Assembly (NCBI GenBank): GCA_947650365.1
Contig: OX393557.1
Coordinates: 30,249,783 to 30,313,782, forward strand
Direction of reading: 5' to 3'
Length of the DNA: 64,000 nt
From: Chamaelirium japonicum
Lineage: Eukaryota > Streptophyta > Magnoliopsida > Liliales > Melanthiaceae
The notes beneath the pieces were generated by a model, which ran no database searches, was not told the DNA's origin, and saw only the letters and a list, made by a program, of their open reading frames with translations. The position numbers and the translations under genes are program-made. Positions 17,488 through 57,446 of the stretch are shown here, one piece after another (the stretch's first letter is position 1; each line of letters starts with the position of its first letter).

Positions 17488-17493
17488 CGTTAA

Positions 17494-17567
17494 TGGCCCA
17501 TGCAGGTTTCGAACCTGCGACCTTCGCGTTATTAGCACGACGCTCTAACCAACTGAGCTAATAGGCC
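17494..17567 (-). tRNA. tRNA-Ile (anticodon AAU)
   Basis: The 74-nt gene reads on the minus strand from GGCCTATTAGCTCAGTTGG (box A and D arm) to a 3' end TGGGCCA. The anticodon loop CTAATAA gives anticodon AAT. The T arm is GCAGGTTCGAAACCTGC, with a perfect box B. The acceptor stem GGCCTAT pairs with ATGGGCC with one G-U pair, and the discriminator base is A. No intron. The AAU anticodon (A34 normally becomes inosine) marks a cytosolic tRNA decoding AUU and AUC. It lies about 200 bp upstream of the RlmN-like start codon on the same strand. Confidence 0.97.
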
Positions 17568-18473
17568 ATTTGCTAGATAAGTCATTCGACAATACTTATA
17601 TGGTTAAGATTATCTACAGCCAAGTACCCTAGTAAGCCTAATTAAAATTTGGAAAAATACTCAACATGACCATCATCCATACTCTTATGCTAAGTGTAAC
17701 CAATGGCCACTGACTTTGTTTGCCTCTATCGCTGGCAACCCGGCCACCATCTCGTCTCCTTCCTCCTCCTTTTTTCTCTCCTTCTTCTTCCTCCTAATGT
17801 CGGTAATCGCGACACTTGGGCTTTCCAAACTCAATGCTGCAATTTTCAAGAGGAGAAAGAAGGAAAAGGCAATAAGGCTGAGGAAGGAGACGAGGAAGCG
17901 TTCGCAAGTTGCTAGCGGGCGGTGTCTGCACGTGCACAGCAGATGAAAAGGGAGGAGAGGGTGGGCTTTAGACTTGTGTTTCCTTTTCGGGGGGGGGGGA
18001 GTTGTTATAGTCTCACCCTATTTATACACATGTTCCTCCAAAATAGGGTTCCCTCAAGAATGGCAAAGATGACAACGCTTATCTAAATGTTTTTGAAAGA
18101 AGATTAGAAATGCTTTCATGCCATTTAGATTTTTGGCATAAGTATTTCATGGTTTAGGTCGTAAAGTTAAAGTTCGGTGCTAGTGATGATTCATTTTTCT
18201 GGTTTTTATCCTTTTTTTTGTTTTAAGAAAAAACAGAGGGGTGAGGGGTTGTAGCTTTTGAAAGTGGATTCAAGGCAATATAAGATTCAATAATGGATCT
18301 TTTAACATCAATATTGTATGATGATTAGCATATAAAGGGCCTTTGTTATTGTAGCAATACCTATTAGTCTGAAGTTATTGGATGAGCCCATCTTGGTATA
18401 AATGTTTATAAGCCAATATGGCTCTTGAAATCTAAATAACATAACTTTTGGTGCAAAGAGAAGAGGGTGATCA
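17568..18473. other. Intergenic sequence, no gene seen
   Basis: It contains a CT-rich patch (about 17755-17800) and a run of nine or more G near 17990. A 70-codon reading frame at 17716-17946 has a hydrophobic stretch, but codon use and context do not support a gene. Nothing else recognised. Confidence 0.4.
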
Positions 18474-23005: not shown

Positions 23006-23428
23006 ATCATCTCCAAGGGGCTTGTCGCTTCCACTCCTTCACCAGAAGTGGAAGCTACAAGGTCATAGCAGCTAGCGGTGCAACTCGAGGTCGGGTTGGT
23101 TCGGGTTTGAGCCAACCCGGAACAGAACCGTATTAGTTCGGATCTACCATATTGAAACCCGAACCAACTCAACTTGGTTATAGATCCCAAACCAACCCAA
23201 CCCAAACTGAGGTCGGGTTAGTTCGGGTCAGTTCTCGGGTTGGTAGTTGGTCTAAAGAAATAATAACCATCAGTCATTTACTAGCAAGCCGAAGGTCTAC
23301 ATTGGGCTTTAGGCTTGAGCCACCCTTGAGTTCTCTTAGTAGTTGGTTCAACGTTAGCAAACAACTAATGTTTACTCGGGTGCTAGTGTGATGTAGCCCA
23401 AAAGTCCAACCCCTGTCATATATATGTT

Positions 23429-24208
23429 GTGGGTGCAAATTTTGGCAAGAAGTCTGCAAACAGCGGGACCCACTGGCCCTGCCTGATGGGCCCACGAAGA
23501 CTGCAGCGGGACCCACCGGCCCTGCCTGGTGGACCCACGAAGACTACAGCGGGACCCACCGGCCCTGCCTGGTGGACCCACGAAGTCTACAGCGGGACCC
23601 CCCGGCTCTACTTGATGGGCCCACGAAGACTATCGCGGGACCCACCGACCCTGCCTAGTGGGCCCAATAGCCTGTGGAATCCCCCAGGAGATGGTAGCGG
23701 GGTCCACCAGTTTTACCTGGAGGATCTCCAGATCCGACAGCAGAAAACCGCCATTTACCACCAGAAAATCCTATAAATAGCAGAGCATTCGAATGTAAAA
23801 GGATCCGATTTCAAATCCAGAGAGAAAGATCAGTGCCATCATCATCTGATATCTGATTTCAAAAATTAGAGCTCTGGAAATTCTAACCCTCTCAATCTTC
23901 AACTCTTCTCGATCTTCTTCTTGTCCTCGAAGAGATTAGAGAGACTTCAGTGACACTCGGTCTGTCGAGGTCACTTTGATCAAAGTGTTAGTAAATTCGG
24001 GTTGCTCCCTATAGCACGGAGACGTAGGCTTCGGCTGAACTCCGAGATCACATCTCTCGCGTCAACTCTCTGATTGCATCTTCCTCTCTGTTAGCATATT
24101 GAAAGCAGCGACTTCAATCAACAGATCGAGCAACGATCTCTTCGACTCGAAACTTTAATTGACTGGTGAGGCGAGGTCTTCGGGTCGGCACGAAGATTTT
24201 CTCCCACA
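23429..24208 (+). repeat. 5' LTR of the Tat-like element
   Basis: It begins TGTGGG and ends CCCACA. A TATA box (TATAAATA) lies at 23772-23779. The first third contains repeated units of about 40 bp with GGGACCCACCGGCCCTGCC. Confidence 0.93.
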
Positions 24209-24228
24209 GTTTGGCGTCGTCTGTGGGA
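24209..24228 (+). other. Primer binding site of the Tat-like element
   Basis: GTTTGGCGTCGTCTGTGGGA follows the 5' LTR directly. The gag-only element at 50344-56781 has the same site with a single base difference. Confidence 0.8.
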
Positions 24229-24372
24229 TCGGACGAGAAGCTGTGTCCGTTCTACAACTACTATTAGATCAGTCAAATAGACAACTGATCGATAGTCAAA
24301 CTTCCTCGCCTTCTCGGTTAAGCAAACAACCGCTCGGACGTCGACATTCTCGTTGCACCCTTCGCTCTCTGA

Positions 24373-26680
24373 ATGGCGAAGACGAAGCACCAGGGTCAAC
24401 CAGAAGGAAGTAACACTCAACAACAAGCTCGTCCTGAGACTCGATCAATGAGTCAAAGGCTCAACTTCGGACAGCCCCTTGCTGTTCCTGAGATGGGGGG
24501 TTCGCTCAGGGAGTGGGAGATCTGTCGATCGACCGATCGCCCATCCCGCACGACAGTCGATTGGGCAAACTGCCCCCGCTCCTGCTGAAGACCCTCCATC
24601 GACCTATCAAATCTCTGCGATCGACTTCCAATTGCTTCAATTGGCAAAGCAGAATGCCACCCTCACTGCTGAGAGGGATGCTCTTAAGAAAGCGGCTTCC
24701 GAGGCTGGGATCGCTCTCCCTATCCCCTCTACAAGTGAGAGGGTCAATCTTCCGCGACATTCAACCCACTCCGAGCAACGGAGATCAATGGGCACTGCTG
24801 CCCTCGAAAGGATTCGTCGCGACCCTACTCCCTCTGCTGCCCCATGGAAGCAGAGTGTTTGGGATCGCCTTGACGATGAGTCCTCCCAATCATCTTCTGG
24901 TCGCAACTGCGATAGGAAGACACCTTCAAAGCTCGATATACCAAGGAAGCATCAAATAAAAGGCGCTCCTTCAAAAAGTAGAGTCTCCCCTTCCATTCCA
25001 CTTCAACGTGGACTTGGATCGGACCTTCGACACCGACTTCAACCGGCAAATACTTCCATGCCTGAGCAGGAGCTTGCGAACTTGCCTCTTGACCCACATC
25101 TAGGTCGAGGACACGGTCGTAGGGACGGGTATTCCTCCGCAGGACCTCTCCATCGAAGTCTCTTCGAGTCAACATTTCCAAGGGGATGGAGAACTCCTAT
25201 CCTCCCCAAATTCAACTGCGTCAAAGGAGATCCGACTCTCCATATACTTGCCTTCAAGCAAGCTTTGACACCGCACGAAGAAGAGAACAATGTGCTTTGT
25301 CACACTTTTGCCGGGAGTCTCGATGAGCCATCACTTGATTGGTATCATAATCTTCGAGCTGGGTCCATCACCCAGTTCGGTATCTTGGCTAACCTTTTCG
25401 TGCAGCATTATCAGCTCAATTTGAAGCCCGAAAAGAAGCTCGACTCCCTTTATCGGCTGAGGATGGGTGCTGATGAGACTCTCCGCAATTTCACCAGGAG
25501 ATTTCACAACGAGCATGCTGCTCTCTCTGGAAGACATCTGGATGATGAAGCCATCATGTTGGCTTTCCAGAACGCCCTCCGCTTCGATCTACACATCTAC
25601 AACGACTTCATTCGCAATCCCCCTCCTTCTCTGGGTTCAATGTTCGATCGAATCCAGAGAGAGATTGAGGTTGAAGATGATCAAGTCGCTCGAAAAGGGC
25701 GAGAGACGAAGCGAAGACCCGCGGAAAGATATGCTCCAAAGTATGTTGCCAAAGCTCACAACGCTGAGGCAGCAGCTCCCCCAGTCAACAAACGGCCAAA
25801 GAATGATGGACGTCGATCTCCTACGAAGACCACTTTCACCGAGTGGAGTCTGCCGGTCGAACAGATCCTCAATCGCATTCAACACGAAGAATTCCTTCGA
25901 AGGCCCAATCCGCTTCAGCCAAACTCAAAATTCATGGCTGACAAAACGGTCTACTGCGACTTCCATCGAAGTCATGGCCATTCCACCGATCGGTGCTATC
26001 GGCTGAAATTCCATCTTGAAGACTTATTGCGAGAAGGCCACCTTCAAGAGTTCGTCAAAGGCGGACAAGATCAACGTCGAGCCTCTGCAAAGGGGAAAGA
26101 AGCATGTTGGATCCATCAAATCTCCTCCAACCGGCAACCTATCTCTGTGAATGCCAACGTCTTTGGTATTCATGGAACATTGCACAATCAAACCTTGACC
26201 GGGAAGGAAGTGGATCGGCAGGTTCGACGCATCTTCCATGTTCGTTCTGCTGCGAACAAGGAGGATACCTGGATCGAGAAGCCTATCGAAGGTTTGACTT
26301 GGCCATCCATTGTTTTCAACGACTCCGATCTTCAAGGAGTCCATACTCCCCATCGAGATCCCCTGGTCTTGAAACTCCTCATCGATGGAAGCACCGTCAA
26401 TCGAATTCTCATCGACACCGGGAGCTCCATCGATATTATGTTCTCAGATTGTTTCAAACGTCTGGGACATAGATACTCTAGCCTCGACGTCGTTCCGACT
26501 GTGATCACTGGCTTCAACGGCGAACAAAGTATCACGGTGGGCGAATCGAGATTCACTCTCGACCTCAGCCGAGAAACTCGAGTCTCGGTGAGGTTTGCAA
26601 TTGTCGAAGGAGTGTCCAGCTACAACGCCATACTTGGGCGACCATTCCTCCACCAGATCAATGCCATCTCCTCTTCTTAG
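24373..26680 (+). other. gag-protease region of the Tat-like element (fossil)
   Basis: The Gag core (about 25150-25700; motifs FNCVKGDPTLHILAFKQAL and DSLYRLRMGADETL) matches plant gypsy retrotransposon gag. A CCHC-like zinc knuckle (CDFHRSHGHSTDRC, about 25960) follows. The aspartic protease motif LIDTGSSIDIM lies near 26410. Gag is closely related to that of the element at 50344-56781. This part belongs to a broken element. Confidence 0.88.
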
Positions 26681-26989
26681 CACCAACTACTCAAATTTGC
26701 AACGGGAGAGGGCATTGTCTGCATACGAGGTGATCAGCAAGCTGGGAGGTCTTGTGAGGCTGCCGCGGCTAAAACAGATCGAAAGATCAATATTGCTCCT
26801 CCAAAGCGGCCACGAGATGAAGCTGGTCCCTCTTCCAAATAGCAATTAAACGAGATTCCACTAACCGAGCCTCCACCAATCGAATGGGAAACCTCACCTT
26901 CAATCGAAGAAATCATCCCTATCAATATCGGAAGTGGAAAGCTATCTCGACAAACATTTATTGGTACCAGTCTTAGCGACGCAGAAGCG

Positions 26990-29900
26990 CAAGACATGGT
27001 ATCCTTTCTTCAATCCAATATTGACGTCTTCGCCTGGTGTTTTGAAGACATGCCTGGGATCAATCCAGATGACGCTTGTCACAGGCTCGCTATCAAAGAA
27101 GAAGTGAAACCAGTCAAGCAAAAGCCACGCACAATCCGACCAGAACTAAAAATTGCCGTTCAAGAAGAGATCAGCAAACTACTCGCAGCAGGCTTCATCC
27201 GTGAAGTAGAGTATCCTACTTGGATCTCTAATATTGTTGCTGTCCCAAAGAAGAACGGAAAGGTCAGAGTGTGCATCGACTTCACCAACCTCAACAAGGC
27301 TTGTCCCAAAGATCCATTCCCCATGCCAAGAATAGATAGACTCGTCGATGCCACTGCTGGCCACGAGCTATTGTCTTTTATGGATGGATACTCTGGGTAC
27401 AACCAAATTCCACTTCACGCTGATGATCAAGAGAAGACATGTTTTGTGACTAGCCGGGGTCTTTACTGCTATAATGTAATGCCATTCGGCCTCAAAAATG
27501 TTGGTTCCACTTATCAAAGGTTAGTCACAAAGATGTTCGAAGATCAGATCGGTCGCAATGTCGAAGTATACGTCGACGATCTCCTCACCAAGAGCTTCAT
27601 TCGAGGAAACCATCTATCCGACCTGGCGGAAACCTTTCAAATCCTTTGAAAGTACCGTATGAAGCTCAATCCGGCCAAGTGCGCTTTCGGAGTTCAATCT
27701 GGCAAATTCCTGGGTCATCTTGTGACCAGGAGGGGCATTGAAGCCAATCCCGACCAAATTCGAGCCATCCTCGACATGCCATCACCTACTAATCAGAAGG
27801 AAGTGCAACGTCTCACTGGTAGACTTGCCGCCCTCAATCGGTTCATCTCAAAGTCTTCCGATAAATGTAAGCCTGTTTTCGACAAACTATGAAAGGCGGA
27901 TACTTCAGGGTGGAGTTCAACTTGCGAAGAAGCTTTTCAAGGCATCAAGAAATATCTGGTGCAAGCTCCTATCCTGAAGGCTCGTCTTCCCAAAGAAGAT
28001 TTATGGCTCTATCTCGCCGTGACCGATCAAGCAATCAGTGCGGTCCTAGTCAGCAGAAGAGAAGGTATCGAGCATCCAGTCTACTACATCAGCCATACTC
28101 TTCTTCCGGCTGAGACTCGTTACTCAAAAACTGAGGTCATCCTGGCCTTGCTCACTGCATCACGTCGCCTCCAACCCTACTTCGTCTCTCATCAGATTAC
28201 TGTCATTTCAGAACACACACTCAAAGATATTGTTGACAAAGCTGGTCGAGCTGGTCGAATGACTAAATGAGTGATCGAAATGAGTGCTCTAGGGATTCAA
28301 TTCGAATCTCGCACTTCCATCAAAGGTCAAGTTATTGCTGATTTTCTAGCTGACTTTCCAGTCGAAGACCCCATCACTTGGGAAGAAGACGTCGATATGC
28401 GCCTAGAAGATGAAGCTGATCCTCCGTTCAGTCTTGCAACAAAAACCGATCCAAGCCTCGAAGCAATCGCCACAACTCCTCCATGGAAACTTTACACTGA
28501 TAGAGCTTCAAGTGCGATCGGTTCGGGAACTGGGATAGTCTTGGTATCCCCCGAACTTGATCATCTCCAGAAGGCCACTCTCCTCGGGTTCAATACCACC
28601 AACAACGAAGCCGAATACGAAGCACTCATTTCCGGACTCGAAATGGCTGAATCCCTGGGGGTAGATCGAATCATCGTCTACAGCGATTCCCAGCTGATCA
28701 TAAGGCAAATCAATGGAGAATACACAGCTCGAGAAGAAAGAATGCAACTCTACTTGACTTTAGTACGACGTCTTCAACAATGTTTTACTAATACTGAATT
28801 CGTTCAAATTCCAAGAGCAGAGAATCGTGAAGCAGATGCCTTAGCCAACGCTGCCTCAGTTCTTGGCGATTCGCTTGGAGGAAGACAAATACAAATTGAT
28901 TATCAAGAAGTGCCCAAGACCATCCCCGATCAACAAATCCTTACTACCACAAAAAGATCTGGGGGTGGAGATCAACTGACATTGAACCTCACTACTGCAA
29001 GTGAGTTTGAGGATTGGAGACTACCAATTCTTAACTTCTTCAAGCACGGTGAAGTACCAGAAGATCCCAATCAAGCCCGAAGACTTCAAAGGAAGCTTCA
29101 ATGCTATACCATTCAAGGAGAAGATCTATACTTCAAATCTCACAACGGGGTGATGCTCAAGTGTATTGGTCTCGAACAAGCAAAGGCAATCCTGATTGAT
29201 ATCCACTCTGGAGCTTGTGGAAATCATTCGGGAGGAAGATCTCTTGAAGCCAAGACGAAGCTACAAGGTTACTACTGGCCAACAATGGCAAGGGATGCTC
29301 AGCAAGTTATTCAAAGATGCGAGCCATGCCAACGACACGCTCGAGCTATCCATCTCCCTGCAGATGAGCTTCACCAATTGTCGAGTCCGTGGCCTTTCCA
29401 TCAATGGGGGTTGGATTTCTTGGGTCCCTTCCCACCAACTCCAAGCAAGAAGAAATATCTACTGCTGGCCACGGATTACTTCACCAAATGGGTTGAAGCT
29501 ATGCCACTCTTCCGAGAGACCGATGGTGAAGTGATCAAATTCATTCGGCACAACATCTTCTCAAGATTTGGTACACCTCAAGCTCTTGTTGCTGATAATG
29601 GAGCTCAATTCGACTCTGACAAATTCCGTGAGTTCTGTCTGAACAACGGAATCAAGCTCTTCTACTCAACTCTAAGATACCCTCAATGCAATGGTCAAGC
29701 TGAAGCCTCCAATAGAGCTATTCTCGGTATACTCAAGAAGAAGCTCAACGACAAGAAAGGATCATGGGAACAAGTCCTACCTGAAGTTCTTTGGGGATAT
29801 CGCATGACTCCAAGAAGATCCACAGGGTTCTCACCTTTCCGTTTGATGTACGGATCGGAAGCAGTACTCCCGACAGAGAATATATCGAATACTTTGAAGA

Positions 29901-30250
29901 CCAGGGCAGTTGAAGAAGGGATCAATAAAGAGCTTCGAGTCAATGATCTAGACTTCTCTGAAAAACTACGAGACCAAGCCTCCCTTCGTGTGGCCAAGTA
30001 TCAGCAGAAGATCAAACGAGCCTATGATGAGAAGGTCTACAAGAGACAGTTCCCAGTGGGCAGCCTAGTTCTCAGAGCAGTCTTCTACAATACGAAGGAA
30101 CACATCAGTGGGAAGCTTGCTCCCAACTGGGAAGGTCCATATATTGTCGAATCAGTGGGAGGTAAAGGCTCTTATCGATTGATCTCACCAGAAGGAGATA
30201 GATTGCCACGAGCTTGGAATTCTAGACACCTCAAACTGTTCTATCCATGA
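26990..30250 (+). other. pol region of the Tat-like element (fossil)
   Basis: Domains in order: reverse transcriptase (about 27000-27650, with VCIDFTNLNKACPKDPFP and the catalytic YVDD motif); its RNase H (about 27950-28270); a second, archaeal-type RNase H (about 28480-28830, NNEAEYEALISGLEMA), which is characteristic of Tat elements; and integrase (about 29190-30000), with an HHCC zinc finger (CEPCQRH) and the DDE core. The region is interrupted at a few places. Confidence 0.9.
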
Positions 30251-30859
30251 TGTAAATTCCATGATGAATAAAGATCTTTTTCAACTATTCAAATGTTCTA
30301 GTTCTGCAGCAATTCCAAATTATCCATATTCAAGTTACAAGGTCTTTTAACAAGTTTGGGTGCTTGAGTTGCGACTCAACCCCTTACGGGCAAATGTTAA
30401 AACGATTTCAGGTTGTCATTCAAAGCAACCTTCAAGTCACTAGTCGGTTTAACAGGTTGGGGAGTTTGTGTTGCGACACTACCCCTTACTTACAAATGTT
30501 AACTGACCTTCAATTTCAATATTCAATTTCAATCAATTTCGACATTGTCTAACAGGTTTGGGTGCTTGAGTTGCGACTCAACCCCTCACATACGAGTGTT
30601 ACACGAATTCAAATTCAATTTTTAAGTTACAACAAGTTTGGGTAATCGAGTTGCGACTCGACCCCTTACATTCAAGAGATTGTATCCATTCCACATTCCA
30701 ATGCTACCCAGAACATGATATTCAAAGACAATCAAGAGACATCCAATTCTCAAACACCAAAAAGATCTCTATTATTATCAAAAATTTGCCAAATACAAGA
30801 GTGAGCTTTTACATATCACGATTCTACAGGGGCAACAACAAAAAAGAAGATAGAAGATC
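30251..30859. other. Spacer after pol with short repeats
   Basis: A motif GGTTTGGGTGCTTGAGTTGC, followed by GACTCAACCCCT, recurs about four times at 60-110 bp intervals (about 30355-30665). It looks like a small repeat cluster between pol and the antisense region. No coding sequence. Confidence 0.6.
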
Positions 30860-33680
30860 TCAAGGCTTAGCCACACTAGGAGCGCGCGACTTCTCTCCTT
30901 CGGATCCACCTCGAGCTTTACTCGCCACGGAAGCCTTAGAAGATCGGACGCTGCTAGCGTGGACCCTGAGTGCCTCCACCGCCTTCTCAGCCGTCTCTCT
31001 ATAGCTCGCGCATTCACCTCGCATGTGCTCTAACTCTTTCTTGAGAGCCTCTTCTTTGGCAGCAAAGGCATTGCTCTGGGCAGCAAGCTGCTCCTTCAGC
31101 TCTTTATTTTCAGCTGCGCGATCACAGGACAAGGTCTCTACCCTGGAGAGCCGAGTCTTCAGAGACTCGAGCTCGTGACCCCGAGCCTCATAACCTTCCT
31201 GCCGCGTCTTGCTCTCCAGCTTCTCCTTACGAAGATCCTCGATCTTGGCCTTGAGAGACTCTTTCTTCGAATGCAGCACCTCCCTCAGCTTGTCTCTCTC
31301 CTCGTGGACAGCTTCCAATTCAGCCGTTAGGCGAGAGACTTCAGCTGAAGCCTCTCACTCCCCGTACTTCTTGAAAAGCTTCGTGCCGAATTTCAGAACT
31401 GCTGAGTTCTGCGAACAAACAAGAAATGATATAAGTATATCGGAGGATTCAATTCAAAAGACAGTTCAAGCTGGTGCACTTACCACCACTTCGAGCCTAT
31501 GAAAGGCTTCCTCGATCGGGGCCCCCGGAAGGTTGTAGAGCTTCCGGATCACGGGAGTTGGGTGGTTGATGTCAACCTCACCCAAATCTTTCAAAAATGA
31601 AGCCATGCCAGCAGGTGCACCTACAATCAAACAAAAGTTCAAAAAGAGTTAGAATATTTTCAAACTTCGAAGGCAGTATGATCAGAAGTAGAATCCAATG
31701 AGGATACCTGAGACATCGACCTGAGGAGCCTTTTCCTTCCCACGGTCAGAGCCCTTACCCTTGGAGGTAGATTTCTCCTTAGCGGGGGTTGGCTTCGGCT
31801 GAGATGGGGGAGTCCCATCCCCCACTCGGCTTCCTCTCTCCATGTGTGCGGGAGATGGAATACCCCTAGGAGGGGAGATTTCCCCTTCATCTTGTTGTCC
31901 AGGCGACTGCTGCATCCCGGCCACAATCGCCGCCATCTCATCTGCCAAAGATCGCGACGGAGGAGGTGGCTGTTCAACCTCCAGGCCTCCACTTGTGGTC
32001 ACGCCCTCGAGGCGGAGAGCGTCTGGAGGAATTTGGGCGAGAGGCGTGGGGTTGCTTCCAACCCCACCACTCCCAGAGAACTTAATCTTGAAGCGCACTG
32101 GACGCTTCTTTAAATCTTCAAAATGATAGGCGGGTTGCACCTTCTTACCGTCACCCTCTGCATCCATCACAACCTCCATTCGACGGGCCTTAACCTCGTC
32201 AATAGGGATAGGTTCTGAATCTTCCTCTCCTTCTTCACCACCAGTGGGGGTGGGAGGAATCTCTTCCTCACCACCCCCCTGTCCTTTGTCGCCATCAGTG
32301 GGGGTGGGAGGAATGTCATCCCCACCACCCCCATCTTCACCACCTTCATCTCCATTTCCTCCTTCGCTGCTGCCACTGCTGTCATCAGCATCATCATCTC
32401 CCTCATCCTCTTCACCTCCACCTTCTTCCTCTCTCTCTTCTTCCTCTTCTTCTTCTTTCCCCTTTTTCTCTTCTTCTTTCTACTTCTCCTCCTCGACAGA
32501 GACTTTCCTCTTCTTCTTTGTCTGGCCTTGGCGACGTATCACCAATTTCTCCTCTGTGGGCAAACTGCGCCTGGCTCCGTATGCCTTTTTCTCGGTCCGA
32601 ATGTTTCTAATGATCTTGCCCGACTGAGGATCCTCCTCATAGTCGGAATACAAGACATCGTTATCTTCATAACGAGTCTTCGATCAATAGAGGAGGTTGG
32701 CATTGCCATGTCGAACTGGGCAATTTGAGAATTGCTTCCATGATCGAGTCCCACATGTCAGCTCCAGGAAGAGATTGTCAATAGCCCCTACTCGCTCCGA
32801 AGACCATGAGAGAGCTCCTCCTGTGCAGTACATATCTATCTTTTTGTGCACCTTGAGCCGAGGAGTCTCAGGTACCGAGAGAGGAGTCCATGCACCGGAA
32901 ACCAATAACGGCCAGTCGGTGTAAAGCTTGTCAGAGCCAATGGTGTCGATGATCGGGCGAAGAGCGGATACACCAGTCAGATTGTAGAATGGGCTATCCT
33001 TCCTTGAAGCCCACTTATAGTGGTAGAAGAAATAGCCCAACTCTATCCTTGCAAACTCGCCCTCGGGAAGGCTGGAGTAACACTCCCTCAATTCATCTTG
33101 GAAGTCAGACTCCACGCGGCAGAAAGCGTATATGATTCTCCACGCATTTCCAGTAATCTGCCCAGGGCAAAGACCCGAGGTGTTCAGAAGCCTTGCGGCG
33201 AACGGCGGCAGTGGGAGGCGCAGTCCATAGTTCAACTGACCTATGGTAACTATCGTCCCCATCACCTGCTCCTTGCTCGTATACGTGATGAAGATTGTCC
33301 GCCTGTCGATGCCAAAAGCGGATAGAACTCCCGCAAGCGCTGGTCGGGATTTCCCCTCCGTAAAACAAGCTAGCAGCTTCTGCAATTTCTCTCTCTTCGA
33401 ATCAGTGAGTTGACCACCAGTATTGTACCCAAACTCCGGTTCCGCCGACAAAGGCAACTGCGGGCAGAGAACAGACCTCGCTTTGGGGATGTGCTCCGGA
33501 CGGGAGGGTGCAGAAGCAAACCCCACTCCCTGGTGCCTCTTGCCCAATTGACCAAGCTCGATCAACTCGGCCCTGCCTTTGCCACGGCCCTTCGAGACAG
33601 ATGAGACTTCAGCAATTTCCTTCCCTTTCCTCTTGGAAGGAACTGCACTCTTCTTCAAATTGCCGGAAGACGCCATTTGA
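30860..33680 (-). other. Antisense coding region of the Tat-like element (fossil)
   Basis: Minus-strand open stretches run opposite to gag-pol. The first (33680-32684) has a globular domain (GQITGNAWRIIYAFCRVESD) like the putative gypsy-type transposon proteins found antisense in plant Tat elements. Further along are an acidic Glu/Asp/Gly-rich stretch (about 32250-32500), a Pro/Ser/Lys-rich stretch (about 31690-32100) and a predicted coiled coil of about 150 residues (30860-31318). These are probably exons of one spliced antisense gene, as known in Tat relatives. Function unknown. Part of a broken element. Confidence 0.75.
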
Positions 33681-34050
33681 CCGATCGAAAGGAGGCAAAG
33701 AACAGAGAGCAAGGAAACGAGAGAAAAAATTCTGGACTTCGAAAAAATTCTGAAAGCGTGAGGCAAAAATAACAGCCAGGAAAAACTTATATACCCAGGG
33801 TAAACAGGCGCGCAGATCGAAGAGACACGTGGCATCACCTGGGCAAATCGCGTGTTTTTACCAGGGACACGTGGCGTCAATCCATTGCAAGCGCAAGACC
33901 AGGTGAACAGGCGGGGCCAGCCGAAATGTCGAACCGGCTGGACCATCGGTTCAAGCTAACCACCGGGTCAGAAGACTCACCGGTCCATCAGGCCCACCGG
34001 TTCGCAGCAGAATATTCCACTTCAAATTTTTGCACTAAGTATTGTCCAAT

Positions 34051-36260
34051 AACCTTGACCGGCTGAATTTAACCGATCGGTCAAATTCAACCGATCAGTC
34101 GATTTCCCACTGGATCGGTCAAAAAACTATGTATTTTTTGACCGATCACTCCAACCTTGACCGGCTGAATTTAACCGATCGGTCAAAATTGACCGATCGG
34201 TCAAATTCAACCGATCAGTCGATTTCCTACTGGATCGGTCAAAAAACTATGTTTTTTGACCGATCACTCCAACCTTGACCGGCTGAATTTAACCGATCGG
34301 TCAAAATTGACCGATCGGTCAAATTCAACCGATCAGTCGATTTCCCACTGGATCGGTCAAAAAACTATGTTTTTTGACCGATCACTCCAACCTTGACCGA
34401 CTGAATTTAACCGATCGGTCAAAATTGACCGATCGGTCAAATTCAACCGATCAGTCGATTTCCCACTAGATCGGTCAAAAAACTATGTTTTTTTTGACCG
34501 ATCACTCCAACCTTGACCGGCTGAATTTAACCGATCGATCAAAATTGACCGATCAGTAAAATTCAACCGATCAGTCGATTTTCTACTGGATCGGTCAAAA
34601 AACTATGTTTTTTGACCGATCACTCCAACCTTGACTGGCTGAATTTAACCGATCGGTCAAAATTGACCGATCGGTCAAATTCAACCGATCAGTCGATTTC
34701 CCACTGGATCGGTCAAAAAACTATGTTTTTTGACCGATCACTCCAACCTTGACCGGCTGAATTTAACCGATCAGTCGATTTCCCACTGGATCGGTCAAAA
34801 AACTATGTTTTTTGACCGATCACTCCAACCTTGACCGGCTGAATTTAACCGATCGGTCAAAATTGACCGATCGGTCAAATTCAACCGATCAGTCGATTTC
34901 CTACTGGATCGGTCAAAAAACTATGTTTTTTGACCGATCACTCCAACCTTGACCGGCTGAATTTAACCGATCGGTTAAAATTGACCGATCGGTCAAATTC
35001 AACCGATCAGTATATTTCCCACTGGATCGGTCAAAAAACTATGTTTTTTGACCGATCACTCCAACCTTGACCGGCTAAATTTAACCGATCGGTCAAAATT
35101 GACCGATCGGTCAAATTCAACCGATCAGTCGATTTTCCACTGGATTGGTCAAAAAACTATGTTTTTTGACCGATCACTCCAACCTTGACCGGCTGAATTT
35201 AACCGATCGGTCAAAATTGACCGATCGGTCAAATTCAACCGATCAGTCGATTTCCTACTGGATCGGTCAAAAAAACTATGTTTTTTGACCGATCACTCCA
35301 ACCTTGACCGGCTGAATTTAACAGATCGGTCAAAATTGACCGATCGGTCAAATTCAATCGATCAGTCGATTTCCCACAGGATCGATCAAAAAACACCGAT
35401 CACTCCAACCTTGACCGGCTGAATTTAACCGATCGGTCAAAATTGACCGATCAGTCAAATTTAACCGATCAGTCGATTTCCTATTGGATCGGTCAAAAAA
35501 CTATGTTTTTTGACCGATCACTCCAACCTTGATCGGTTGAATTTAACCGATCGGTCAAAATTGACCGATCGATCAAATTCAACCGATCAGTCGATTTCCT
35601 ACTGGATCGGTCAAAAAACTATGTTTTTTGATCGATCACTCCAACCTTGACCGGCTGAATTTAACCGATCGGTCAAAATTGATCGATCGGTCAAATTCAA
35701 CCGATCAGTCGATTTTCTGCTGGATCGGTCAAAAAACTATGTTTTTTGACCGATCACTCCAACCTTGACCGGCTGAATTTAACCGATCGGTCAAAATTGA
35801 CCGATCGGTCAAATTCAACCGATCAGTCGATTTCCTACTGGATCGGTCAAAAAACTATGTTTTTTGACCGATCACTCCAACCTTGACCGGCTGAATTTAA
35901 CCGATCGGTCAAATTCAACCGATCAGTCGATTTCCTACTGGATCGGTCAAAAAACTATGTTTTTTGACCGATCACTCCAACCTTGACCGGCTGAATTTAA
36001 CCGATCGGTCAAAATTGACCGATCGGTCAAATTCAATCGATCAGTCGATTTCCTACTGGATCGGTCAAAAAACTATGTTTTTTGACCGATCACTCCAATC
36101 TTGACTAGTTGAATTTAACCGATCGGTCAAAATTGACCGATCGGTCAAGTTTGACCGATCGGTCAATTTTGACCGATCGGTCAAGTTTTATCGATCGATC
36201 AAGTTTTACCGATCGGTCAATTTTGACCGATCGGTCAAGTTTGACCGATCAGTCTATTTT
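34051..36260 (+). repeat. 118-bp tandem array with palindromic subunits
   Basis: About 18 to 19 copies begin AACCTTGACCGGCTGAATTT. Most are exactly 118 bp long; shorter ones are 100 to 107 bp and one is 82 bp. The 100- and 82-bp variants differ by one and two copies of an 18-bp subunit built on the palindrome TTGACCGATCGGTCAA. The last 150 bp degenerate into runs of this subunit alone. The array sits between the antisense region and the polypurine tract of the Tat-like element. Confidence 0.95.
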
Positions 36261-36360
36261 TGACACTAACATTCGACAGAGCTCCTCTGCGTGTGTGGCA
36301 GGGGGTCGTTAGCTTTGCACCACGAATCCAAGCCAGCCAAGGTGGACTCTTAGCTAACTT

Positions 36361-36372
36361 GGAGGGGGTAAC
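36361..36372 (+). other. Polypurine tract of the Tat-like element
   Basis: GGAGGGGGTAAC directly precedes the 3' LTR. The same tract, on the other strand, is found in the gag-only element next to 50934. Confidence 0.8.
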
Positions 36373-37167
36373 TGTGGGTGCAAATTTTGGCAAGAAGTCT
36401 GCAAACAGCGGGACCCACTGGCCCTGCCTGGTGGGCCCACGAAGACTGCAGCGGGACCCACCGGCCCGGCCTGGTGGGCCCACAAAGACTACAGCGGGAC
36501 CCACCGGCCCTGCCTGGTGGACCCACGAAGACTACAGCGAGACCCCCCGACTCTACCTGATGGGCCCACGAAGACTATCGCGGGACCCACCGACCCTGCC
36601 TGGTGGGCCCAATAGTCTGTGGAATCCCCCAGGAAATGGTAGCGGGGTCCACCAGTTTTACCTGGAGGATCTCCAGATCCGACAGCAGAAAACCGCCATT
36701 TACCACCAGAAAATCCTATAAATAGCAAAGCATTCGAATGTAAAAGGATCCGATTTCAAATCCAGAGAGAAAAATCCAGAGAGAAAGATCAGTGCCATCA
36801 TCATCTGATATCTGATTTCAAAAATCAGAGCTCTGGAAATTCTAACCCTCTCAATCTTCAACTCTTCTCGATCTTCTTCTTGTCCTCGAAGAGATTAGAG
36901 AGACTTCAGTGACACTCGGTCTGTCGAGGTCACTTTGATCAAAGTGTTAGTGAATTCGGGTTGCTCCCTATAGCACGGAGACGTAGGCTTCGGCTGAACT
37001 CCGAGATCACATCTCTCGCGTCAACTCTCTGATTGCATCTTCCTCTCTGTTAGCATATTGAAAGCAGCGACTTCAATCAACAGATCGAGCAATGATCTCT
37101 TCGACTCGAAACTTCAATTGACTGGTGAGGCGAGGTCTTCGGGTCGGCACGAAGATTTTCTCCCACA
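36373..37167 (+). repeat. 3' LTR of the Tat-like element
   Basis: It starts TGTGGG and ends CCCACA, like the 5' LTR. It is 795 bp, longer than the 5' LTR by a short duplication near 36760. Confidence 0.93.
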
Positions 37168-50315: not shown

Positions 50316-50343
50316 TAATACATAGGGGTAATGGTAAGGGTAC

Positions 50344-50934
50344 TGTGGGGGAGGATTTCGGCCGTCGTACGTGACCCTCCTCCAACAGTCGATTGAAGGT
50401 TTGACCCTTCGGGATGTGGCGCGCTTCGAAGCGCTGAGTTGTGACTTGTTGGGCTGTCACACAAGCACTGTAGAGTAGTAAGGTAGAGAAAGATATGACA
50501 CAGGATGTGGTGACGAAGTTCGGCCGAAGCCTACGTCTCCGTGCGGTAAGACGCAACCTCTGAATCCACTATCTCTGAGTAAACAATATAGCTACTCTCG
50601 ACAGGCCGATGAGTGCTTCTTACAAGTAATCAGAGGGTGGAAAAGGAGTCTGAAAACCAGAAAACTCGAAGAGCTCTGGATTGCAGAAAGTGGGTTTCTG
50701 GTCTCGAATTTCGGATCTGGAATCATTTACAGGGTCTGCTATTTATAAAGGCTTAGTTTATCTGAGAAATATTCCAGGAATATTCCCAGGAATATCCGGG
50801 GTTTGGTAAATACCCGGGGGATTTACCAGACCCCAGATAGTGCAAGTGGGCCCCAGGCAGGGCTGCGGGTCCCACCATTGGACTCGTGGGCTGCGGGTCC
50901 CACCGTTGGGCGTTAGCCAGATTTTGCACCCACA
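50344..50934 (-). repeat. 3' LTR of the gag-only element
   Basis: Begins TGTGGGGG and ends CACCCACA as written on the plus strand. Almost identical to 56191-56781. Confidence 0.95.
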
Positions 50935-50947
50935 GTTACCCCCTCCC
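50935..50947 (-). other. Polypurine tract of the gag-only element
   Basis: GGGAGGGGGTAAC on the minus strand next to the 3' LTR, matching the tract of the Tat-like element at 36361-36372. A second, similar block lies at 51256-51296. Confidence 0.75.
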
Positions 50948-51107
50948 AGCTAGATAGGTGTTAACCTAGCTGGTTGGGATTTCCTGGTGCAAAGTCGGTC
51001 GCTCGTCTGTCGATCCTCTGTCCGGGGTTGGTCGTCATCTGTCTGTCGACCTGCTATGTGAGGCTGACCGTTGGGCCCACCGACTCCCTACCAGGGGTCG
51101 ACCGGGT

Positions 51108-51252
51108 GTGCGTCTGCCGACCCATTGCGCGGGACCGACCATCGTCTGTCTACTGACCCGTTGCGTGGGGCTAACTGTTGTCTGCCTGCCGACCCGTTGC
51201 GAGGGGCCGACCGTCGTCTGCCTGCCGACCCCCTGTCCGGGGTCGACTGCTG
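51108..51252. repeat. 36-bp tandem repeat
   Basis: Four units of 36 bp with GTCTGCCTGCCGACCCGTTG followed by a GGGGCCGACCGTC-like half. More degenerate units precede from about 51000. Confidence 0.8.
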
Positions 51253-51344
51253 GTGTGTTACCCCCTCCCAGTTGGGTAGGTGGTAACCTGGTTGACTGGG
51301 GTCACAAAAATAACTGCATGCAAGTCGGTTCAGGCTAAAAAACC

Positions 51345-51570
51345 TAAGGGGCGTTGGTCAAAAAATATTAGGGACAGGGAGTTTTGTGCAAAAAGTCAGG
51401 GGCAGGGGGTTTTGTGTAAAAAGTTAGGAGCAGGGGTGGTTCGTGCCAAAAAATCATGGGGCAGGCGGGTGCTGTGCAAAATGTCAGAGGTAGGAGGTTC
51501 TGTGCAAAAAGTTAGGGGCAGGGGGTGTTTTGTGCAAAAAATCTTAGGTAAGGGTTTATGTGTATAAATT
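51345..51570. repeat. About 31-bp tandem repeat
   Basis: Roughly seven degenerate units with GTGCAAAAAGTCAGGGGCAG and a following GGGGTTTT. Related phrases continue to about 51735. Confidence 0.75.
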
Positions 51571-52019
51571 TGGGTCAATTCTGTGCAAAAAATCAGGAGC
51601 AAGGGGGTTTGATTGGAGATTCTGGATGGTAGGGGTTTTTTTTTGTAAAAAATCATGGACTAGGTTTATTGTCAAAAAGTGAAAAAAAGGGGTTTTGGGC
51701 AGAAATTTTTAGGACTGGGGGTTTTTTTGCAAAAACCCAGGTTGGGTTTTGGGGGGTTGGTAGAAGTGTACAGGAAGACTCCCGGGGTAGACCCAAGAGC
51801 ACCCGAGGTGGTAGGTGGGGTTTTCTCCTAGTGGGGGTCGGTAGAAATGCTAACCATTCGATTATAATGCAATGAAATCAAAACCATACGATGGAGTCAT
51901 GGTGAGAATACTGTGCACCCAGTCCGAATCAAACGGTTGTGATCTGAGCCACCTCAGCCTTTGTCTTTAGTGGGTCGGTAGACAGGGTGATTTTTTTTTT
52001 TTTTTGTCGTGTAGGGGGT

Positions 52020-52224
52020 CGGGAGAAATGCAAGGGGGGTGGGGGGGGGGGGGGGAAAGGGGGAGCTCGGGGTCGGATGGTGGGGGTCTGATGGCTGCGG
52101 CGGCGGAGGGGCTCGCCGGCCAGGGAAGGGGACGGGCGGAGGTGGGGTGGCGCGGGGGTGGGGTCCTGTCGGAGATGGAGACGGGCGTGGACGCGGGCCG
52201 GGTAGTAGGCGGCGGCGCCGGGCG

Positions 52225-52257
<33 letters not shown>

Positions 52258-52300
52258 GTTTGTTTGGTGCAAGAGGGCAAAAAGTAGGGGTGGGGGGGGG
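52020..52300. repeat. G-rich block with long G-tracts
   Basis: G runs include about 30 bases at 52226-52255 and shorter ones near 52040 and 52295. Long apparent reading frames on both strands come from composition alone. Confidence 0.8.
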
Positions 52301-52512
52301 GGGGGCACAGAAGGTGGCTAGCGAGTGAGTGAGTGGGCCGGGCCGGGCCGAGCCGAGCCGAGAGGAGCTTTGGCCTATTTGTGCTTGTCTTGTTTATCAA
52401 GCGAGCCTAAACTCCGGCTTCGATCGTCGCACCTACCGATGTGTCGTCCGGCATCAGCCACCGCGCACGCACCGACCCCCTGCCAAGGGTCAGTCGGGGG
52501 TGCGTTTGCTGA

Positions 52513-52990
52513 GGCGTAGGCCGCCTCGGGCTTCGTCTTCGAATACCGAAGCAGGGCTTTTGGGCTTTGTTGAATACCGAGGCGAAGGCCGCCATGGGCT
52601 TCGTCTTCGAGTGCCGAAGCGAGGGCTTCGGACTTCGTCGAATACCGAGGCGAAGGCCGCCTTGGGTTTCGTCAGTGAGTGCCGAAGTGAGGGCTTCGGG
52701 CTTTGTTGAATACCGAGGCGAAGGCCTCCATGGGCTTCGTCTTCGAGTGCCGAAACGAGGGCTTCGGGCTTCGTCGAATACCGAGGCGAAGGCCGCCTTG
52801 GGTTTCGTCAGTGAGTGCCGAAGTGAGGGCTTCGGGCTTCGTCGAATATCGAGGCGAAGGCCGTCTTGGTTTTCATCTTCGAGTGCTGAAGCGGGGGCTT
52901 CGGGCTTTGTTGAATACCGAGGTGAAGGCAGCCTTGGGTTTTGTCGGCGAGCGCCGGAGCCGTCTCTCCGAACTCGTTAAGCGCCGAGGC
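52513..52990. repeat. 68-bp tandem repeat
   Basis: Seven units start GGCGAAGGCCGCC at 52581, 52649, 52717, 52785, 52853 and 52921 (exactly 68 bp apart), with a partial unit before. The unit is rich in CTTCG and CCGAGG. Degenerate relatives (GAGGCGGTGAAGCCTGCCTC) continue to about 53640. Since 68 is not a multiple of 3, the apparent reading frames are unlikely to be a protein. Confidence 0.9.
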
Positions 52991-53680
52991 GGCACAGAGC
53001 ACCTCGAACTTTGTCGGCGAGTGCCGAAGCTGTCTCTACAGACTCATTGAGCGCCGAGGCGGTGCGGAGCACCATGGACTTTGCATTCGAGTGCCACGAC
53101 TGTCTCCTTGGGCTGAGACAATATCGACTCAGACTTTGGAAGGTGTCGTGGCGGTGAAGCCTGCCTCGGACTTTGTCTTCGAATATCGAGGTTGTCACCT
53201 TGGGCCGAGACGATGTCACCGTCTCGGGCTTTGTCTGGTGCCAAGGCAGCGAAGTATGCCTCGGACTTTCTCTTTGAATGTTGAGGCAGAGTTTGCCTCG
53301 GGCCAAGATGTTACCGACGTCTCGGGCATCGTCAGGTGTCGAGGTGGCGAAGCTGGCCTCGGACTTTGTTTTCAAATACTGAGGCGAGGTCACCTCGGGC
53401 TGAGACGTTGTCGATGTCTAGGGCTTCGTCAGGTGCCGAGGCGGTGAAGCCTGCCTCGGACTTTGTCTTCGAATGCCGAGGCGAAGGTCGCCTCGGGCCG
53501 AGACGTTGTCGATGTCTCGGGCTTCGTCAGGTACCGAGGCGGTTAAGCCTGCCTCGGATTTTATTTTTGAATGCCAAGGCTGTCACCTTGGGCCGAGACG
53601 ATGTCGCCATCTCGGGCTTTGTCTTTGTATGCTGAGGGTGTGACCTTAGACTTACTGATTGACGGGGGTATGAATTCAGA

Positions 53681-54420
53681 GTACTCAGCGTAGTGCCTTT
53701 GTATCGGTTGGACTTAGGCGAAGCACTGTTTCAGTCGAACCTACGTATCGGAACACGTAGCTTTGTACTGTTGCAGGTTAGTCAGCCGTGTCGCAACGCG
53801 AACTGAACTAACTATGGCAGGGTACTAGTGCATGTGTCCTTACATAACAATGGGAGCACGTGCAATACCAATGATTTAGAGTACTCAGCGTAGCGCCCTT
53901 GTATCAGTTGGACTTAGGCGAAGCGCCGTTTCAGTCGAACCTACGTATCGGGACATGTAGCTTTGTACCGTTGCAGGTTAGTCGGCCGTGTCGCAACGCG
54001 AACCGAACTAACTGTGGCGAGGCACTAATGCATGTGTCCTTACATGACAACGGGAGCATGTGCAACACCAATGATTCAGAGTACTCAGCGTAGCGCCCTT
54101 GTATAGGTTGGATTTAGGCGAAGCGCCGTTTCAGTCGAACCTACGTATCGGGACACGTAGCTTTGTACCGTTGCAGGTTAGTCGGCCATGTCGCAACACG
54201 AACCGAACTAACTGTGGCGAGGCACTAATGCATGTGTCCTTACGTGACAACTGGAGCACGTGCAACGCCAATGATTCGGAGTACTCAGCGTAGCGCCCTT
54301 GTATCGGTTGGACTTAGGCGAAGCGCCGTTTCAGTCGAACCTACGTATCGGGACACGTAGCTTTGTACCATTGCAGGTTAGTCGGCCGTATCGCAACGCG
54401 AACCGAACTAACTGTGGCAT
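53681..54420. repeat. 200-bp tandem repeat
   Basis: Four units, each beginning GTACTCAGCGTAG, start at 53681, 53881, 54081 and 54281, exactly 200 bp apart. The last is cut at about 140 bp next to gag. The units are highly similar, so the array is recent. Confidence 0.95.
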
Positions 54421-54577
54421 TGAGTAAAAGTTGAGATAGAATTTGATAGTCTTCGATAGAACTTGAAGCAATTGTCATTTCATTGATAACTTGGAAGATG
54501 TTACATCATGGATTTCAGGTGAGGGATCTTCCGAGTTGTTGATAGTCTGCAGTCTTTCACTCTGATCGGTTGACGGG

Positions 54578-56071
54578 CTACTTTCCTTTGGTATTTGTGA
54601 TCTTCTGAGGCTCTGCGGGTCTATCGCCTGCACGTCTTGACCTCTTGGAGGTTCTATCTTCCTCAGCCTCTGCGTTGTGAGCTTGAGCTGTTGGTCTCGT
54701 TGGTTCCTTGTCAGAAAGACGCTTCTTGAGATCACATTTCTTGCGAGTGACTTGATCGTCCTCCACCTCGATCTCCTTTTGAATTCGATCGAATAGCACT
54801 CCGAGGGAGGCAGGAGGATTATGGACGAGGTCATTGTAGATGTGGAGGTCAAAACGTAAGGCATTCTGGAATGCAAGCATGATGGCTTCATCGTCGAGGT
54901 GGTGTCCGGAGAGCGCAGCATGCTCGTTTCGGAACCTTCGAGAGAACTCTCGGAGGGTTTCATCTGATCCCATCCTGAGCCGGTAGAGGGAGTCCAGCTT
55001 TTTCTCTGGCTTGAGGTTCAGCCGATAGTGTTGAACAAAGAGGTCTGCCAAATCCCTGAATTGACTTACGGAGGCCGTAGGGAGGTTGTGATACCAGTCC
55101 AGTGACATGTCGTCCAGGCTGCCAGCAAAGGTGCGGCATAGAACCTGGTTGTCTCTATCATGTGGCGTTAACGCTTGCCTGAAAGCGAGGATGTGTAGCG
55201 TCGGATCTCCAGTCAAGCAGTTGAACTTGGAAAGAGCGGGGGCTTTCCAGCTTCGAGGAAACAGGGCATGGAGAATATGCCGATGAAGTGGGCCTTCGGA
55301 GGCATGATCTTTCCGTCTATTGCCTTTCTGGTCGGAGAGGCGTCTTGGAGGAAGAGGAGGTAGAGAGGGCGTCGGAGTCCATCCTATCATCCGATGCCCA
55401 ACTGGGGTTCGATTGCCGTTGTAATGTTGCCGAATTTTGGAGCGGTGTCGATTATTCTGAACATCTCTCCTGGTGTAAGTATCGAAGGATGACCCGGAGC
55501 CCAGAGACTCGGGATGACGAGCAGACTCATTTAGACGCTCCCAGACAGTCGGCCTGGGAGGAACAGGTGAGGGTCCTCTCGAGAGGGATTTAAAAGAATG
55601 TCGAGGGATGTTGATGGTGGATCGTTTGGAAGGAGCGGAAGATTGGTCGACCGACCGGCGGACGTTTGCTCCGTCGTTGATGCCGGCGGTTGACTGCGGG
55701 GGATTGATTTTTGCATTGAAGGTGATTTGTCGGAGAGAGTCTCTCTCAACCATAAGAGCAGCATTCTGTTTCATGAGAGTGAGGAGCTGAAAGTCCTCTG
55801 CCGTGATTTGGTACGTCGCTTGAGCATCAGCACTAGGAGAGATGTGTGCTTTTCCCAAGCGCTGAGGAATTTGGTTGGCTAGTTGAGGCGACTGTCGAAG
55901 TTGAGCCTGGGCGGCGCGATCAATCGACGGACGACTCCTCAAATTGACAGCGAGTTGCTGTTCCGGATGTTGGCTCGTTGCAAACCGATGACTCATTGAT
56001 CGAGTCGTCGGATGTCGAGCGTCTGGGTGCATGCTGCTTTCCTCCGGCTGGTTCATCGGTGTCTTTGCCAT
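54578..56071 (-). other. gag region of the gag-only element
   Basis: One open frame of about 497 codons with the plant gypsy Gag core (FNCLTGDPTLHILAFRQAL, DSLYRLRMGSDETLREF) shared with the element at 23429. The opening MAKTP resembles the MAKTK of that gag. A nucleocapsid zinc knuckle is not evident. Gag would assemble the particle; enzymes would have to come from a related element. Confidence 0.88.
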
Positions 56072-56170
56072 TTAGGTGTAACGATGGAGATAGAAGGATT
56101 GCTCGGGCAACCGGTAGCAGCTACCAAAGGAGTTGGGAGGCTTAGAAGTTGTAAGTTGATAGGATCGTGA

Positions 56171-56190
56171 TCCCACAGACGGCGCCAAAC
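56171..56190 (-). other. Primer binding site of the gag-only element
   Basis: GTTTGGCGCCGTCTGTGGGA on the minus strand, directly inside the 5' LTR, one base different from that of the Tat-like element. Confidence 0.85.
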
Positions 56191-56781
56191 TGTGGGGGAG
56201 GATTTCGGCCGTCGTACGTGACCCTCCTCCAACAGTCGATTGAAGGTTTGACCCTTCGGGATGTGGCGCGCTTCGAAGCGCTGAGTTGTGACTTGCTGGG
56301 CTGTCACACAAGCACTGTAGAGTAGTAAGGTAGAGAAAGATATGACACAGGATGTGGTGACGAAGTTCGGCCGAAGCCTACGTCTCCGTGCGGTAAGACG
56401 CAACCTCTGAATCCACTATCTCTGAGTAAACAATATAGCTACTCTCGACAGGCCGATGAGTGCTTCTTACAAGTAATCAGAGGGTGGAAAAGGAGTCTGA
56501 AAACCAGAAAACTCGAAGAGCTCTGGATTGCAGAAAGTGGGTTTCTGGTCTCGAATTTCGGATCTGGAATCATTTACAGGGTCTGCTATTTATAAAGGCT
56601 TAGTTTATCTGGGAAATATTCCAGGAATATTCCCAGAAATATCCGGGGTTTGGTAAATACCCGGGGGATTTACCAGACCCCAGATAGTGCAAGTGGGCCC
56701 CAGGCAGGGCTGCGGGTCCCACCATTGGACTCGTGGGCTGCGGGTCCCACCGTTGGGCGTTAGCCAGATTTTGCACCCACA
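56191..56781 (-). repeat. 5' LTR of the gag-only element
   Basis: 591 bp, nearly identical to 50344-50934. Confidence 0.95.
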
Positions 56782-57446
56782 GGTATTTTAGTCATTTGAT
56801 GGGAGTTGATCAAGTCAATAGGGGTTTAACATGTGTCTTTTTGGGTTGGGTCATAGTTCAAACCAAACTATTGTTGGGGCTGGTACTTAAAAACATCTTC
56901 TATAAAGGCTTATCATCAACCCCCCCCCCCCAAAAAAAAAAAAAAATATCGGAGGCTACATACCCAACCCATACCCATTCGGGCATTGGAAGGTCCTTAC
57001 CCAACCATACCCATTTAGGTTTCGGGGTTTTCTTCGGATTTTGAATATGTGTCGGATTTAGTTTTGAATTTTTTTAAGATATTTTTTTCTAAATTATTTT
57101 ATAAGACTTTATTTTATATGTGGACTCTGCATCAATATTTTTCTCTCTACAATGTTCAAAAGATGCACAAATTCTTGAAATCGAGCCCAATTTATATATT
57201 GTATTAGGTATATTGGGCAATCATGTTTCGGATATGTATATTTAGGTAGCCATATGTACTCCCGAAAATTGATTGGGTACGATTAGTAACCCATAACCTA
57301 CCCAAATCACATATGTTTGGTAGATTTAATACTCATACCTAAATTACACATGTCCGTGAATGTAAAAATCACGATACCATACCTTTTATTGAGCCTTCCA
57401 ACTCAAGATATATATATATGAAATGTCGAACATGGGTTAGACAATA
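56782..57446. other. Intergenic sequence, no gene seen
   Basis: Contains a C-run/A-run (about 56920-56946) and repeated ACCCATACCCATT motifs (about 56960-57030) that resemble the interior of hAT-type MITEs, but no ends were found. Confidence 0.4.

Follow-up and report, generated by a model that had tools for sequence, protein, structure and literature searches.

Plant retrotransposons that keep gag and lack pol have been described in several systems. Gag-only elements named TR-GAG (PMC4608283, PMC5818461, PMC6022998, PMC9784723, PMC10025401) occur in many plants, and transposition has been observed for one in Arabidopsis (PMC8704663); under the working rule of Inpactor, paired long terminal repeats (LTRs) enclose only GAG, or GAG and AP (PMC6022998). 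The nearest worked-out pair is RLG_Quinta and RLG_Cereba of wheat: Quinta bears gag without reverse transcriptase (RT) and integrase, has a domain of unknown function after gag, and shares parts of the LTRs, the primer site and the LTR tips with Cereba; according to the proposal, a pol-bearing partner mobilises it and it supplies Gag (PMC11302176). Wilma, Sabrina and WHAM form another wheat set, in which, its authors suggest, LTRs were transferred through gene conversion or template switching (PMC9744471). Here, we analysed a gag-only element at positions 50344–56781 of a 64,000-nucleotide stretch of Chamaelirium japonicum DNA (contig OX393557.1), hereafter the window, which had been singled out in an earlier note.

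From its sequence and relatives, this element is probably a recently inserted member of a gag-only (TR-GAG) subfamily of Tat/Retand-type Gypsy elements that is inherited as such, replicates and is trans-mobilised by pol-bearing siblings. It spans 6,438 bp on the minus strand, and its two LTRs differ at three positions, all transitions, corresponding to an age of about 0.2 million years (My) at 1.3e-8 substitutions per site per year, a rate from grasses. Retrotrans_gag is the sole Pfam match of its gag (E 2.8e-9); no pol domain was found in the element, four other open reading frames (ORFs; two per strand) have no Pfam match, and in a self-comparison of the window it matches a second, Tat-like element within gag only. 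The earlier note had described a young, pol-less and non-autonomous Tat-like insertion with about 3 of 591 LTR differences and a gag frame open throughout, all of which our analysis bears out; the frame runs from 56071 to 54578 (497 aa), and the element has many relatives.

With paired LTRs, one gag ORF, a GAG domain only and no pol, the element agrees with the TR-GAG rule and resembles the described TR-GAGs. It differs from them in that its genome allows a sibling donor, a common deletion junction and exchanged LTR and gag segments to be recognised, and in that gag ends before the zinc knuckle. Whereas Cereba is centromeric and carries a CR domain (PMC11302176), the family described here is of Tat/Retand type with tandem repeats after pol. 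This assignment is our best reading of the sequence. A long post-pol region with tandem arrays, as seen here, is a Retand trait, and an antisense ORF is another (PMC11963269), for which one sibling has a candidate with a weak Transposase_28 match. Against Transposase_28 (PF04195), the antisense ORFs of this sibling (L028; loci are numbered with the prefix L) and of the Tat-like element gave E values of 1.9e-4 and 4e-4, respectively, both below the curated cut-off; no match was obtained for three ORFs of L024 or for two antisense ORFs of the gag-only element in the window, and the antisense proteins of the Tat-like element had no match in nine other gag-only copies. The table of Retand clusters in PMC11963269 includes clusters without GAG, AP, or RNase H and integrase, and no gag-only cluster.

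The alignments indicate that the gag-only lineage arose by one ancestral deletion, in which gag, cut just before the zinc knuckle, was fused to the end of integrase. Aligned to the pol-bearing locus L017, the gag-only form matches gag up to position 4914 and picks up again at 9361. About 4.4 kb are absent, including the end of gag with the zinc knuckle, protease, RT, RNase H and integrase; of integrase, a diverged stretch of roughly 25 terminal codons is still visible. The joint is identical in 10/10 gag-only copies, and a 32-base pattern that spans it, derived from these copies, has 396 genome matches (up to 3 mismatches), compared with 0 for the reversed control, which leaves no room for chance. 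Because the junction is common to all ten copies and recurs at this number, the deletion is inherited and the lineage replicates, as expected of a TR-GAG family. All 11 pol-bearing loci examined, of which L029 and L030 are duplicates of each other, contain a C-X2-H-X4-H-X4-C knuckle. Neither the window gag ORF nor any of the six frames of the nine other gag-only loci has one, the element spanning L019 and L020 being covered in its L019 part only. The alternative that numerous pol-bearing copies each lost pol independently once inserted, and that the gag-only form does not replicate as a lineage, has next to no probability. No observation was found to favour it; it is refuted by the shared junction, and it also conflicts with the target duplications at different sites and with a gag tree in which the gag-only copies occupy a separate side with 100/100 support.

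Searching the 1.52-Gb genome with the LTR returned 4236 loose candidates, 40 of which were scored; the matches include pairs spaced 7–9 kb. Further copies thus exist, as the earlier description presupposed, and relatives are many, but the near-identical copies it had looked to are missing from this sample: the closest LTR outside the window element, among the 40 places scored, is 98% identical, and no near-identical sister was seen. Twenty fetched stretches yielded nine further gag-only copies (L009–L016 and the element spanning L019 and L020), together with four loci (L017, L024, L026 and L028) that combine closely related pol with LTRs of the window element's family; L013, L023 and L025 have distant pol matches only (26–61%). 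Perfect 5-bp target duplications flank 8/10 gag-only copies, at different sites, and in the remaining two, the window element (ggtac/ggtat) and L012, four of five bases agree. LTR differences in the ten copies range from 2/592 (L010) to 15/591 and 15/603, dating them to about 0.13–1.0 My. One pol-bearing element, composed of L048 (5′ LTR) and L024 (3′ LTR), could also be dated: with 8 differences over 564 aligned bases, one 40-base gap and a perfect CTCCC target duplication, it is about 0.55 My old, inside the gag-only age span.

Some of these loci are structurally complex. The element spanning L019 and L020 (C9:5529466-5547900) is an 18.4-kb gag-only element that encloses a second, distant gag in opposite orientation, apparently a nested insertion. 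On C6 (about 70.59 and 70.68 Mb), two stretches with L024/L026 and L023/L025 lie ~89 kb apart and are 99.0–99.7% identical; either one pol-bearing copy was duplicated with its surroundings or the assembly contains the same sequence twice. As they belong to this near-identical duplication, L024 and L026 are not independent.

The pol query gave 8289 loose candidates, of which 40 were scored at 91–100% identity. Same-family LTRs were found in 11/11 pol-bearing copies whose 5′ end was read, the main aligned piece being 90–97% identical to the window LTR and some short pieces down to 82%. The pol frame is open over at least 1,100 codons in 5/11 pol loci checked (L017, L032, L033, L034 and L035), and the LTR tips, in the one pol-bearing element where they were seen, are the same as in the gag-only form. 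The primer-site core pattern matches 15/18 copies (8/10 gag-only, 7/8 pol-bearing), missing L012, L015 and L042. Positions 301–591 of the window LTR are 97.6–99.0% identical to L017, L024, L026, L028, L040 and L048 (L024 and L048 being one element and L026 its duplicate) and 94.8% to L042. That constraint on R-U5 alone accounts for the LTR match is made less likely by L042 and L045, which differ from the window LTR by up to 14% at positions 250–300 (50-bp window) and by up to 10% beyond. In gag, alignable segments of the window element and the pol-bearing copies are 72–85% identical, and codons 141–250 are mostly unalignable. By the earlier note, full-length pol-bearing copies with the same LTRs would refute its proposal. 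Such copies exist in a loose sense, as same-family LTRs, although none of the 14 pol-bearing rows in the LTR tree falls in a supported clade with the window LTR; they identify a better donor and leave the non-autonomous idea standing.

The donor originally proposed was the family of the Tat-like element at 23428-37167 of the window, on the basis of a common gag, primer site and polypurine tract. This element indeed shares its LTR tips (TGTGGGTGCAAA...CCCACA), its polypurine core and, with one mismatch, its primer site with the gag-only element, and its RT is 80–86% identical in protein to ten sibling loci (L029–L038). Its gag, however, has a protein identity of 47–48% to L010 and L015, two gag-only copies with an open frame, its LTR otherwise matches copies of the present family over about 40–55 bp only, and its pol is split, the RT match ending at profile position 174/205 with the next large ORF ~600 bp on, whereas the sibling family has much closer LTRs and recombined with the gag-only set. 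We therefore rejected the Tat-like element as the closest donor and consider it very unlikely that it or its family supplied the enzymes; it is a cousin, and a closer pol-bearing sibling family exists. The Tat-like element itself has LTRs that are about 96% identical, antisense ORFs alongside the split pol and, at 34050-36260, a long array whose repeats measure about 118 bp.

We next consider whether the gag-only gag is maintained. Nei-Gojobori ratios of nonsynonymous to synonymous substitution (dN/dS) were compared with neutral simulations (300 runs) using the mutation spectrum of the LTR pairs, in which dN/dS averages 0.63–0.71. Deeper gag-only pairs fall below this expectation: 0.25 for window–L014 and 0.33 for window–L019 (0/300 neutral runs as low in each case), 0.31 for window–L013 (1/300) and 0.37 for L010–L019 (3/300). 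Four pol-bearing pairs give 0.14–0.26 (0/300 each). Of the trio counts, 3/4 on pol-bearing branches reach P < 0.05, compared with 1/9 on gag-only branches (0.016), the window element being counted three times. Among eight window-type gags, shared changes are 15 nonsynonymous (N) to 20 synonymous (S), against 130:74 for private changes (Fisher p 0.025). This set includes L012, whose gag has frame-changing gaps and is possibly misaligned. Without it, the counts become 14:15 and 91:66 (Fisher p 0.42; 0.14 without L012 and L019), the contrast being lost as private changes, too, lie under the neutral expectation in this set (91:66, P 0.006); L019 contributes 32 N and 30 S of these private changes. 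Shared changes alone remain below neutral without L012 (P 0.023), with 6 N:11 S in the C-terminal half (P 0.006). Constraint on the older gag-only gag is thus likely to judge from these counts, and some of the deeper constraint may date from pol-bearing ancestors. Recent constraint is unproven, and a claim of strong selection on the young gag-only gag is unsupported by the neutral simulations, the trio counts and the shared and private counts. The non-autonomous Athila lineages of Arabidopsis (2008) are likewise gag-bearing and pol-less, with recombination between lineages and ORFs under purifying selection, but they belong to another Gypsy lineage, and selection there acts on the branches of potentially active copies (PMC2410132), unlike the recent branches here, for which neutrality is not rejected.

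A genome search with the window gag protein returned 19,683 loose candidates, of which 86 copies were scored. A stop-free gag is present in 24 of them, with a frame of 490–505 codons in 21/24; by protein identity, stop-free copies number 13/43 at ≥90%, 1/5 at 82–89% and 10/38 at 78–81%. The junction adjoins at least 49/86 scored copies, at least 12 of them in the 78–81% group, and lies beside at least 3/10 stop-free gags of that group; these counts are lower bounds, drawn from 52 junction places. Because the junction adjoins stop-free distant copies, an open gag and the junction occur together in subfamilies ~20% apart in protein. Compared with four open pol-bearing gags, the window gag is 86–88% identical over residues 1–116, 49–51% over the linker (117–270), 85–89% over the capsid part (271–444) and 52–54% over the tail (445–497); these values are too low to call the capsid nearly identical in the two forms. 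Among solved structures, a profile of seven gags had no match with E up to 1.

These data bear on the possibility that the element is a passive parasite, trans-mobilised with a gag that is an untranslated or useless leftover, kept solely because the surrounding RNA carries packaging signals. The recent branches, compatible with neutrality apart from one trio count, the shared/private contrast that is not significant without L012, and the stops in 62/86 scored gag copies all favour it. The low dN/dS of the deeper gag-only pairs, the C-terminal shared changes, the stop-free gags at 78–81% identity, some beside the junction, and the preservation of the capsid relative to linker and tail oppose it, and we regard it as rather unlikely. 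One may also propose that the shortened Gag is a maintained protein with a sibling-compatible capsid that has lost the knuckle and enters sibling particles without RNA binding by a knuckle of its own; this proposal is tentative, and we would put it at somewhat doubtful.

In the gag tree, a single branch, supported at 100/100, splits 10 gag-only from 11 pol-bearing copies. The tree of LTRs, with 20 gag-only and 14 pol-bearing rows (34 in all), is different: the gag-only LTRs of L014, L015, L016 and L019-20 join seven pol-bearing rows in a 99/99 clade (L017, L028, L040, L047, L048, L024 and L026, the last three being one element and its duplicate), and forcing all gag-only LTRs into one group is rejected (approximately unbiased test, p = 0.009). 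Mosaics occur within elements as well. In the gag of L016, codons 141–250 are close to pol-bearing L040 by synonymous divergence (dS 0.086) and far from the window element (1.40), whereas codons 431–497 are close to gag-only L014 (0.047) and far from L040 (1.68). L015 combines a window-type gag (94–98.5% by segment) with an LTR whose first 200 bases are 98–100% identical to pol-bearing L047 (50-base windows), and the LTRs of L039 and L040, which pair as sisters in the gag tree (100/98), belong to separate supported clades. Since gag splits cleanly, LTRs intermix and the L016 gag is mosaic, the two populations, as read from trees and alignments, have recombined, exchanging LTR and gag segments. 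The pattern fits template switching in reverse transcription of co-packaged RNAs.

Several points weigh against trans-mobilisation by these siblings or narrow its basis. The mosaics could instead have arisen after integration, the copies exchanging sequence by gene conversion or unequal crossing-over, which we consider improbable, though worth weighing. The L017 locus (C1:101647000-101656900) is rearranged, with 3′-region sequence flanking an LTR on both sides and oppositely oriented same-family LTRs; a pol-bearing copy lies in the near-identical C6 duplication; and conversion after insertion leaves target duplications intact, so these are compatible with conversion of the L016 gag. Conversely, the perfect target duplications of L015 and L016 speak against unequal crossing-over, and conversion after insertion would have had to alter both LTRs of L014, L015, L016 and L019-20, as both belong to the type that pol-bearing copies also carry. 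The 5′ ends were read for only 11 of the 40 scored pol-bearing places (10 fetched, plus L017), and the pol-bearing date comes from one element. No pol-bearing copy clearly of the window's LTR subtype was seen among those sampled: none of the 14 pol-bearing LTR rows is in a supported clade with the window LTR, L046 attaching at the same unresolved node. Gag is open in 3/10 gag-only copies (the window element, L010 and L015), closure in the others being expected from decay after insertion. Neutrality is not rejected for window–L010 (dN/dS 0.47; 56/300 neutral runs as low), window–L015 (0.52; 70/300) and L010–L015 (0.76; 193/300).

Table 1 Features of the gag-only element and its flanks (positions in the window)
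Feature	Position	Strand	Remarks
5′ LTR	56191..56781	-	591 bp, TGTGGG...CCCACA; TATAAA at LTR position 188
3′ LTR	50344..50934	-	591 bp; 5′ LTR differs by 3 transitions
Target-site duplication, left copy ggtac	50339..50343	.	one mismatch to right copy
Target-site duplication, right copy ggtat	56782..56786	.	
Primer binding site TGGCGCCGTCTGTGGGATC	56169..56187	-	
gag ORF	54578..56071	-	497 codons + stop, open throughout, without zinc knuckle
Capsid-type domain Retrotrans_gag (PF03732)	54854..55129	-	residues 315-406
Deletion junction	54514..54603	-	gag end fused to diverged remnant of last ~25 integrase codons
Tandem array	53674..54418	-	200-bp unit, 3.7 copies; pol-bearing siblings have array too
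Tandem arrays	52511..53623	-	units 68/136 bp and 98/195 bp
Non-coding 3′ region	50935..52510	-	30-base G run at 52226-52255, + strand
Polypurine tract GGGAGGGGGTAA	50936..50947	-	adjoins 3′ LTR
Second, internal polypurine-like block GGGAGGGGGTAA	51258..51269	-	322 bp upstream of 3′ tract

Between the 5′ LTR and gag lie the primer site and a leader of 119 bp. Among seven sequences inspected, the internal polypurine-like block is present in the window element, L010, L014, L015, L016 and pol-bearing L024, and absent from L028; it is possibly a second plus-strand start. Elsewhere, the window contains an ORF at 12610-13227 with a strong DUF659 match (E 9.3e-53) and a tRNA-Ile gene (anticodon aat, minus strand) at 17493-17568.

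Under the favoured reading of trans-mobilisation by pol-bearing siblings, gag-only RNA would be packaged in particles of the sibling family, whose enzymes would reverse-transcribe and integrate it by way of the primer site, polypurine tract and LTR tips that both have in common. The LTR and gag recombinants would result when reverse transcription switches templates within particles that contain RNAs of both kinds. The shortened Gag may also be translated and its capsid part join mixed particles, a step with less support than the others. If it is a maintained protein, it could provide bulk capsid that helps both families, or act as a brake on sibling particles, as truncated Gag does in yeast Ty1 (PMC7765848) and RTL8 on PEG10 (PMC11684626). 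A paper on triticale states that plants had so far provided no described case of this kind, and itself raises Gags without the RNA-binding motif, with a possible interfering role (PMC7765848). Dependent gag-only elements are already known in plants; the point of interest here is that a long-lived lineage has lost the zinc knuckle. This genome retains the dependent family and the siblings with pol, along with the deletion between the two and their recombinants. It is thus a good natural setting in which to ask whether elements with gag alone exploit, help or inhibit their donors, a question on which a capsid without its RNA-binding part would discriminate better than elements with a complete gag.

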